Origin: Hymenobacter sp. GOD-10R
Lineage (GTDB): Bacteria > Bacteroidota > Bacteroidia > Cytophagales > Hymenobacteraceae
Assembly (NCBI RefSeq): GCF_035609205.1
Contig: NZ_CP141184.1
Coordinates: 3,748,501-3,812,500, forward strand
Reading direction: 5' to 3'
Length of the DNA: 64,000 bases
Each line of letters begins with the position of its first letter. Position 1 is the first letter of the stretch. A program made the position numbers and the translations under genes. This document shows positions 47,588 through 49,283 of this stretch, one piece after another. The notes beneath the pieces were generated by a model. The model was given only the letters and a program-made list of their open reading frames with translations. It did not search any database and was not told where the DNA came from.

Positions 47588-47623
47588 AAGCCCATCTGAA
47601 TTCGAGCGAATCCAGATGGGCTT
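47588..47623 (-). terminator. hairpin with T tract on the minus strand
   Basis: AAGCCCATCTG-A-ATTCG-AG-CGAAT-C-CAGATGGGCTT. On the minus strand it is followed by TTTTTTATT; on the plus strand it is followed by AAAAAGC. So it ends a minus-strand transcript better than the NlpC/P60 gene. Confidence 0.7.
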
Positions 47624-47950
47624 AAAAAGCGATACCCGGTCTGCCTATGCAAAACCTCAAAGAGAGGCTGCTGGGCGGACCGGGTATCTAATCCTTCAAA
47701 TCTTACCAAGCGACGAGTCTGGGGTTCAGCCCCGTCATCCTTGGAGGTAAGACCTTGCCAGAATGCGGGAACACGCCCTGAGGGGCTAACAAATGTTCCG
47801 CGCGAAAGCTGTTGTTAAGCGCGTCCGGCGGTGAAGCGGACTACATTCGACAGGCTTGGCAGGATTTGGTTGGGACTACTAGACATTTTGTACCTCCTTT
47901 CTTTACGTTCGACATCTCCCCACCCGCGCTACCCAGCACCTTAGGGCTGC
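47624..47950 (-). ncRNA. candidate structured RNA with leader ORF
   Basis: The 656-base gap between the NlpC/P60 and DUF2147 genes holds a chain of strong hairpins: 47631-47688 (GATACCCGGTC/GACCGGGTATC), 47701-47752 (TCTTACC..CCTTGG region, with GGGG/CCCC inside), 47765-47803 (GCGGGAACA/TGTTCCGC) and 47822-47843 (GTCCG/CGGAC). The minus-strand terminator at 47588 and the 23-codon ORF with a perfect Shine-Dalgarno (47815-47886) favour minus-strand transcription. It does not match tmRNA, RNase P RNA, SRP RNA or 6S RNA as I know them. Transcript ends are inferred. Confidence 0.45.
47815..47886 (-). CDS. 23-residue small ORF behind a perfect Shine-Dalgarno
   Basis: On the minus strand AGAAAGGAGGT (47892-47902), five bases, then ATG at 47886, running 23 codons to TAA at 47815. 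The peptide begins MSSSPNQILPSLSNVV and ends in RFTAGRA. The 11-base element is exactly complementary to the 3' end of Bacteroidota 16S rRNA (ACCUCCUUUCU), whereas nearly every other gene here lacks such a site. The ORF overlaps the hairpins nearest the 5' end, so its translation could change the RNA fold. Coding status is not proven. Confidence 0.45.
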   Translation of the reverse strand: MSSSPNQILPSLSNVVRFTAGRA

Positions 47951-48241
47951 TTGGGGGGGCCGTAGCACTCACTACTGGTTGGTAAAGTTAAAAGCCGGGC
48001 GGATGGTTCAAAATAAAAAACCTGTTTTTTAGCTGCGCTCAGCCATTTATCCGGCAGCGCCTTGACTATCAGCTAGTTTTTCTTTCTAAAAATTTTGTCT
48101 TTTTTCAGAAAGGCCGCTTTTAAGTCCTGCGACCTAGGGTATGGCCTCATTTGCTTCACCCGTCAATTCGCTACTACCGCACTGATTTAGAAGTTTTGGA
48201 GTATCTTTTTCCCACAAAACCCACTCACTACGCACGCTATT

Positions 48242-48682
48242 ATGAAAAAAACCTTGTTCCTCTGCTTGGCACTGCTGCTGGGCTTTACGGGAATAGCTAC
48301 CGCTCAGACGCTCTCTCCGGTTGGCATGTGGACCAACGCCGACAAGAAAGCTACCTTCGAGATTTATAAGTGCGGTGACAAGCTCTGCGGCAAAATTGTA
48401 ACAGTTGCCGTCCCAAACGACCCAGCTACTGGCAAGCCAAAAGTTGATAAGAACAACCCCGAACCCAAACTTCGCTCACAACCATTGCTGGGGTTGGTAT
48501 TCATGCGGGACTTTGCCTACGATAGCGAGAACAAGTGGGATGACGGCAAGATCTACGATCCGGAAAACGGCAAAACGTATTCTTGCTACATGAAGGTACT
48601 GAATGCTACTAGCATGGAAGTAAAAGGTTACATCGGCTTCTCGATGATTGGCCGCTCCCAGACCTGGACGCGGGTAAAATAA
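48242..48682 (+). CDS. secreted DUF2147 protein
   Basis: A 146-residue protein with signal MKKTLFLCLALLLGFTGIAT-AQ. The DUF2147 domain fills the mature part: SPVGMWTNADKKATFEIYKC, GDKLCGKIVTVAVPNDPATG, LGLVFMRDFAYDSENKWDDG then KIYDPENGKTYSCYMK, and GYIGFSMIGRSQTWTRV. Two cysteines (YKCGDKLC) are conserved in the family. Function unknown; envelope location. A 58-bp perfect palindrome follows. Confidence 0.92.
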   Translation: MKKTLFLCLALLLGFTGIATAQTLSPVGMWTNADKKATFEIYKCGDKLCGKIVTVAVPNDPATGKPKVDKNNPEPKLRSQPLLGLVFMRDFAYDSENKWDDGKIYDPENGKTYSCYMKVLNATSMEVKGYIGFSMIGRSQTWTRVK

Positions 48683-48815: not shown

Positions 48816-49283
48816 CTAATAAATAGCTTCGATCCGATAGGGCTTGCCACGGAACGTATACGTTTGTCCTACGCGACTTTTGGCCATAGCCTGATACATG
48901 GGCGAGAAGGCAGAAATAGCAAAATATTTTTCCCCTTCTACAGCTATTTCCCCGAGGCTCACGGCAATATAGAAGCGTTGGGTATCCGTCACGACGATGG
49001 TACCTAGGGTAGGCTCGTCGTGCGCGGCACGGGTTTCGGGCAACCGCTGTAGTACTTGCAAGCTGCTGAGTGCCTCATCAAGCTGCTGGGCATATAAGTC
49101 GCGCTGAATCTGGCAGGCTTCCCGGAACGACTCAAATTTGTCTTCAATAGCGCCTTGGCTTTCATTGGCGCTTTCCTGCACATCCAGCATGGCCTGCCGG
49201 GCAGTGTCGGCCTTTTGCTGTTGAACTCGACGGCATTCTGCTAGTAGCCGTTGTTTAAGCGTCGTGCGTTCGATGGTGGTCAT
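48816..49283 (-). CDS. GreA/GreB-like protein
   Basis: A 155-residue protein with an N-terminal coiled coil (about 5-85; LKQRLLAECRRVQQQKADTA, FESFREACQIQRDLYAQQLD) and a C-terminal FKBP-like domain (about 90-155) that reads LGTIVVTDTQRFYIAVSLGE and ISAFSPMYQAMAKSRVGQTY. The 'SP' word and final IEAIY are those of GreA/GreB transcript-cleavage factors. The acidic coiled-coil tip typical of true GreA is not obvious, so it may be a competitor or accessory factor binding RNA polymerase. Such divergent copies are common in Cytophagales. Confidence 0.75.
   Translation of the reverse strand: MTTIERTTLKQRLLAECRRVQQQKADTARQAMLDVQESANESQGAIEDKFESFREACQIQRDLYAQQLDEALSSLQVLQRLPETRAAHDEPTLGTIVVTDTQRFYIAVSLGEIAVEGEKYFAISAFSPMYQAMAKSRVGQTYTFRGKPYRIEAIY

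Follow-up and report, generated by a model that had tools for sequence, protein, structure and literature searches.

A reading frame of 23 codons on the minus strand of Hymenobacter sp. GOD-10R raises the question of what an extended Shine-Dalgarno (SD) sequence does away from rpsU in a phylum with a masked anti-SD. According to passages of PMC9976891, the anti-SD of Bacteroidia is sequestered by bS21, bS18 and bS6, and extended SDs, which are characteristic of rpsU, are favoured by Flavobacterium ribosomes that lack bS21. In the window (the whole 64,000-nt stretch analysed here; all features below are on its minus strand unless marked +), the extended SD AAAGAAAGGAGGT at 47892..47904 can be read directly 5 nt (ACAAA) before the ATG (47886-47884) of the micro-ORF MSSSPNQILPSLSNVVRFTAGRA, which comprises 23 codons and a stop (47815..47886; TAA at 47817-47815), as a preliminary description of this DNA had it. 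The predicted duplex of the SD with ACCUCCUUUCU has an energy of -17.6 kcal/mol, a value calculated with an assumed 16S tail instead of the genome's own, for which two patterns found no match, so that the pairing rests on this tail and the published core. AGAAAGGAGGT is invariant in 83/83 loci examined, with variants in some Pontibacter-like and distant loci, and both SD and micro-ORF are kept across the family and beyond; their lack of conservation had been named beforehand as evidence that would count against the locus. A search of the whole genome for AAAGGAGGT before an ATG returned 6 matches versus 7 in the reversed control, and among the five SD sites read the micro-ORF alone looks convincing; an SD-led frame is unusual in this genome.

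The micro-ORF appears to lie within a stand-alone structured RNA gene of ~350 nt (47624..47977, both ends estimated), whose transcription we infer from conserved promoter-like boxes, structure and a terminator. A -33-like box, TTTG (48009..48012), is found 18 nt from the -7-like box TAACTTTA (47983..47990); the Bacteroidota promoter consensus given in a passage of PMC7366714 is TTTG / TAnnTTTG. With a search pattern devised after the alignment had been seen, both boxes were found at the right spacing in 103/111 family sequences (18 nt in 101) versus 0/111 control windows within the RNA. The terminator hairpin and its T tract (47624..47688) are terminator-like in 96/111 family sequences by a simple rule, a figure that has no control behind it. 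The minus-strand T-tract terminator of the preliminary description thus has two counterparts, as a second, strong hairpin with a T tract can be read directly at 47588..47623, 3' of the RNA's own terminator, abutting the NlpC stop codon and beyond the match ends of nearly all relatives.

A 373-nt stretch of this locus folds with an energy of -159.6 kcal/mol, whereas 100 shuffles that keep its dinucleotides give -124.5 +/- 6.1 (z -5.8). Upstream of the SD are hairpin H1 (GUAG..CUAC; 47962..47975), with 96.2% of alignment cells paired and both-side changes in 1/4 pairs, and hairpin H2 with an inner stem (47918..47960), with both-side changes in 6/7 pairs (helices 2 and 3). Together they have 90.4% of cells paired and 53 both-side changes versus 19.2 in shuffles, whereas the count of pairs changed on both sides (7 versus 6.2; 190/500) is not above shuffles. 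Hairpin H3, in the 3' part of the ORF (47823..47841), has both-side changes in 4/5 pairs and 79.0% of cells paired, and its register shifts between genera; a hairpin at the stop codon (47800..47822) is weakly defined, its outer pair being broken in 8/33 sequences. The chain of minus-strand hairpins first described is therefore confirmed, except that the 5' end lies upstream of the 47950 originally given, H1 occupying 47975-47962 and the two boxes 47990-47983 and 48012-48009. The SD is only partly accessible in the predicted ensemble, which counts against the switch proposed below: its mean unpaired probability is 0.58 and exceeds 0.7 in 7% of 111 sequences. In the window, and likewise in its close relatives L021 and L028, the SD could pair with UUACCUCC (47750-47743); we judged this to be due to chance because the other aligned rows do not share it.

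The main new finding is a predicted long-range helix, P1, which covaries across genera and families and is supported by a comparison of cognate and swapped duplexes. Consensus folding, covariation and swapped duplexes place its 5' strand over codons 4-11 of the micro-ORF (47854..47877) and its 3' strand, GCUUGGUAAGAUUUGAAGGAUU, just before the terminator (47690..47711). RNAalifold pairs these codons with the 3' element in 33 genus sequences, where most P1 pairs are invariant. In 39 sequences from all family genera sampled, 90.2% of P1 and H3 cells are paired, falling to at most 47.0% when the strands are slid, and both-side changes number 78 versus 23.5 in shuffles (0/500); further pair types (31 versus 29.6; 160/500) are the one of five measures not exceeding shuffles, and in five rows of this alignment the AGUCC part is out of register. 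P1 alone, in 29 sequences including other families, has 95.0% of cells paired (at most 51.0% when slid) and 39 both-side changes versus 10.5; such changes affect 12/13 pairs in its long helix. Compensatory base changes, the absence of which was to speak against a structured RNA, are accordingly present across relatives in P1, H1/H2 and H3.

Energies of the ORF/3' duplexes in 11 lineages point the same way, with a mean of -21.8 kcal/mol for cognate and -16.9 kcal/mol for swapped strands. Because closely related lineages are partly interchangeable, the cognate partner is the best in its row for only 3/11 and in its column for 6/11 lineages. Ensemble folding predicts a mean of 15.6 P1 pairs, with 90% of the 111 sequences reaching 8 or more; one of the eight sequences from other families (L179) has zero. 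Among the matches listed for a set of named genomes, GGATT occurs 90-200 nt downstream in 73/74 real loci, and equally strong pairing with the ORF is seen in 121/6223 background windows.

The position of P1 suggests how it might be opened. The helix starts at ORF nucleotide +10 in the window RNA and at +7 where an extra codon is absent, so that by its geometry an initiating 30S subunit and closed P1 should be mutually exclusive, and elongation would have to open P1. The preliminary description had translation opening the 5' hairpins; the notion of opening stands with P1 as the proposed target, backed by covariation and duplexes, and H1 and H2 were discarded as the main site of the effect because they lie upstream of the SD. 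Our preferred reading is that of a stand-alone, vertically inherited regulatory RNA acting as a conformational switch set by translation, a proposal that we regard as evenly poised between right and wrong. At rest, the 3' element would be paired with codons 4-11, within the footprint of an initiating 30S. A 30S with an accessible anti-SD, either bS21-less or with its 16S tail otherwise unmasked, would dock on the 11-13 nt SD, and initiation and translation of the short ORF would force P1 open and free the 3' element. The latter may then pair with an upstream GGUCUUA-like segment (GGUCUUAC, 47747..47754), a possible second partner with no more than suggestive duplex energies of -14.0 kcal/mol for cognate versus -11.6 kcal/mol for swapped strands. 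The ribosomes concerned are presumably of a bS21-poor class, and the open or closed state presumably has a regulatory output, which could be pairing of the freed 3' element in trans or altered stability; neither a target nor an output was identified. If translation does flip P1, the RNA would allow a direct test of the role of anti-SD-exposed ribosomes outside rpsU and provide a ready-made reporter.

BLAST with the 373-nt query matched 120/120 genomes of the genus, including one (G112) in which the match covers query positions 2-68 only (67 bases), and 147/200 genomes of the family. Nearly all genus genomes have one copy, and G082 has two on one contig. A covariance model of the 5' part of the RNA (R1) applied to an order-wide sample of 390 genomes detected it in 79/79 Hymenobacteraceae and in 8/311 others at E <= 1.5e-9 (families f5, f17 and f20), with marginal matches in eight further genomes. 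Even at its plainest, the locus holds an RNA that has no Rfam family and that every Hymenobacteraceae genome of the sample contains: Rfam 15 gave 0 matches at gathering score in the window, and 10 homologous loci gave nothing but a separate cobalamin riboswitch. Weak Rfam matches in the window (anti-hemB, E 0.0044, on the terminator region, and miRNAs) are far below gathering scores, no tRNA or tmRNA was identified there, and no title in the open-access literature searched names this RNA. Two of the eight genomes with marginal R1 matches, G410 and G429, were read together with a second, weak match in G160, and these loci (L184, L194 and L195) were judged non-homologous. G280 has a recognizable homologue (L185, E 9e-4) that has lost the SD core (AAAGAAAGGTGCTATG) through decay or assembly error, the genome being 75% complete.

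Across 395 genomes of the class, R1 has eight matches at E <= 0.001. Four are in genomes of the genus; the other four, in G543, G518, G810 and G867, each have a 19-23 codon ORF after a strong SD. A pattern scan of named genomes found an 18-23 codon ORF behind GAAAGGAGGT in at least 74 of the 118 loci listed; 38 were rejected for their resemblance to the antisense of the 16S 3' end and 6 as longer ORFs. This antisense sequence (L208 and similar loci) reads AAAGGAGGTGATC, mimicking an SD and a TTG start. Among the 80 of these 118 loci that carry a title, at least 51 are real and belong to Pontibacter, Rufibacter, Adhaeribacter, Botryobacter, Rhodocytophaga, Chryseolinea, Ohtaekwangia, Cesiribacter, Nafulsella, related genera and Cytophagales bins. 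One bin labelled uncultured Bacteroides (L227) encodes a peptide identical to that of Ohtaekwangia. Class-wide, the SD pattern matched in 10/395 genomes, about as many as in the reversed control, and four of the loci (L350, L351, L356 and L359) were dismissed as they precede unrelated frames. R1 misses divergent homologues that the pattern catches in Chryseolinea, Ohtaekwangia and Cesiribacter, and calls of absence are therefore weak. Homologues are present in further families of the Cytophagales and, more sporadically, in the rest of the class; vertical inheritance of the RNA is part of the explanation preferred here and shares its even standing.

Extended SDs have been linked to the autoregulation of rpsU by ribosomes free of bS21 (passages of PMC9976891), and here one is found on a separate, deeply conserved RNA. 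The two systems have in common an 11-13 nt SD in an anti-SD-masking phylum and similar predicted pairing energies, near -17 kcal/mol for the RNA and -16.2 and -16.9 kcal/mol for rpsU of two f19 genomes, G410 and G454 (L335 and L328), in which GAAAGG(A/G)GGTGTATA precedes rpsU in keeping with the published autoregulation. They differ in that the SD of the RNA drives a 23-codon ORF unrelated to S21, with neither bS21 nor another protein gene downstream, and in that the RNA is a separate gene with a long-range helix and the local rpsU has no SD. In the genome of the window rpsU is at a separate place, and it lacks an SD in six family genera (one genome each). With 30 further genomes included, a strong rpsU SD is absent in 15/17 RNA-bearing genomes checked, the remaining two, G518 (-17.1) and G867 (-13.5), having both. 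Among 19 genomes without RNA detected by R1, which include G410 and G221 with marginal matches, the rpsU SD is strong in 2 (both f19), moderate in 1 (-11.0) and missing in 16. For genomes with more than one S21 gene (G515, G810 and G867), the best one only was read; these three f23 genomes have two or three bS21 matches each, a possible sign of alternative compositions of the small subunit. Across the genomes sampled, the RNA mostly accompanies an SD-less rpsU. A simple, clean exchange of the two was not established, 2/17 genomes having both and 16/19 neither. A bolder form of the proposal, which takes up the sensing of free anti-SDs suggested in the preliminary description, would make the RNA an order-wide sensor of 30S subunits exposing the anti-SD, with ORF translation flipping P1 and the state being relayed in trans. 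This is a tentative reading, possible if doubtful; were it true, ribosome composition would be the input of a stand-alone RNA switch.

The main rival explanation is that the RNA is the mRNA of a functional microprotein of 18-23 aa, whose translation and stability P1 and the hairpins merely tune. Frame length is 22-23 codons within the family and 18-23 outside it; starts are ATG or GTG, indels stay in frame, and as the chance of such a length in a random frame is ~0.11, its persistence over divergent lineages points to translation of the micro-ORF. A microprotein would account for the N-terminus MS(S/N)P..(I/V)L, which recurs in Cytophagales, and for the dN/dS of 24 distinct sequences from the genus and g19, which is 0.39 in frame versus 1.50 and 1.07 out of frame. 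However, for codons 2-13 of 15 distinct sequences from the remaining genera of the family dN/dS is 0.77 in frame, no better than 0.75 in one shifted frame (1.01 in the other). The peptide moreover differs strongly between lineages, for example MSSPKHILSINRTLKFFTGVKN, MSNSDKTLSVKQISNLSVVKMN and MTSSSCYVTCFITQIPLKR, while SD, frame length and P1 largely persist, and some residue changes track P1 and H3 pairing, changes such as G/V/E accompanying base-pair changes in the H3 region. Three peptides searched had no Pfam or NCBIfam match. We consider a functional microprotein rather unlikely.

Among the closest known systems are the mRNAs of type I toxins, which have a short ORF in a structured stand-alone RNA whose 3' end pairs back and blocks translation. 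Fold-back or 5'-3' long-distance pairing is known from hok and AapA1 (see PMC6733600). The present RNA resembles them in its short ORF and its stand-alone structure; P1 joins its 3' element to the ORF, and a block of translation by this helix would be a further parallel. It is unlike them in that the 3' end pairs with coding sequence and in its presence in every genome of the genus, and the hydrophobicity of a toxin was not found in 14 peptides (GRAVY -0.25 to 0.61; best 15-aa mean hydropathy 0.09-1.41).

An improbable alternative is that the RNA is an abundant decoy, occupying anti-SD-exposed 30S subunits in futile rounds and thereby sparing internal SD-like sites. A near-maximal SD on a tiny ORF with a weakly conserved peptide, equipped with its own promoter-like boxes and terminator, would suit such a role, but a sink needs no helix pairing with its ORF, P1 would lower its capacity, and nearly all genomes have a single copy.

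The surroundings of the RNA bear on whether it acts on an adjacent gene. In the window it lies between a divergent DUF2147 gene (48242-48682, +) and a convergent NlpC/P60 gene (46773-47585, +), which agrees with the original view that no same-strand gene follows and that the RNA stands alone. The upstream neighbour is DUF2147-like in 8/8 family loci with enough flank (by eye) and the downstream gene is convergent in those family loci that were read; other families have other neighbours, and the RNA apparently serves no particular one. Passages of PMC6429828 deal with leader peptides, attenuators and conserved sORF motifs, and the RNA is like these in that translation of a short ORF would decide the fold, and unlike attenuators in having no constant downstream gene and a terminator that follows in either state. 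That it is the leader or attenuator of a regulated downstream gene is very improbable: a leader-like ORF with hairpins and a terminator after it would fit, as would unrelated same-strand genes starting 286 nt (Rhodocytophaga, L242) and 247 nt (Ohtaekwangia, L221) past the micro-ORF start, but a constant same-strand gene is absent from the window and the loci read, the next gene being convergent in the window and family loci and the following genes varying between families.

Two further features were seen beside the RNA. A 155-aa ORF at 48816-49283, for which no significant Pfam family was found, has likely relatives in Pontibacter and Adhaeribacter that also adjoin the RNA and its DUF2147-like neighbour (by eye). 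In G810 (f23), the homologous RNA (L200, 1191-1417) is located just upstream of a cobalamin riboswitch.
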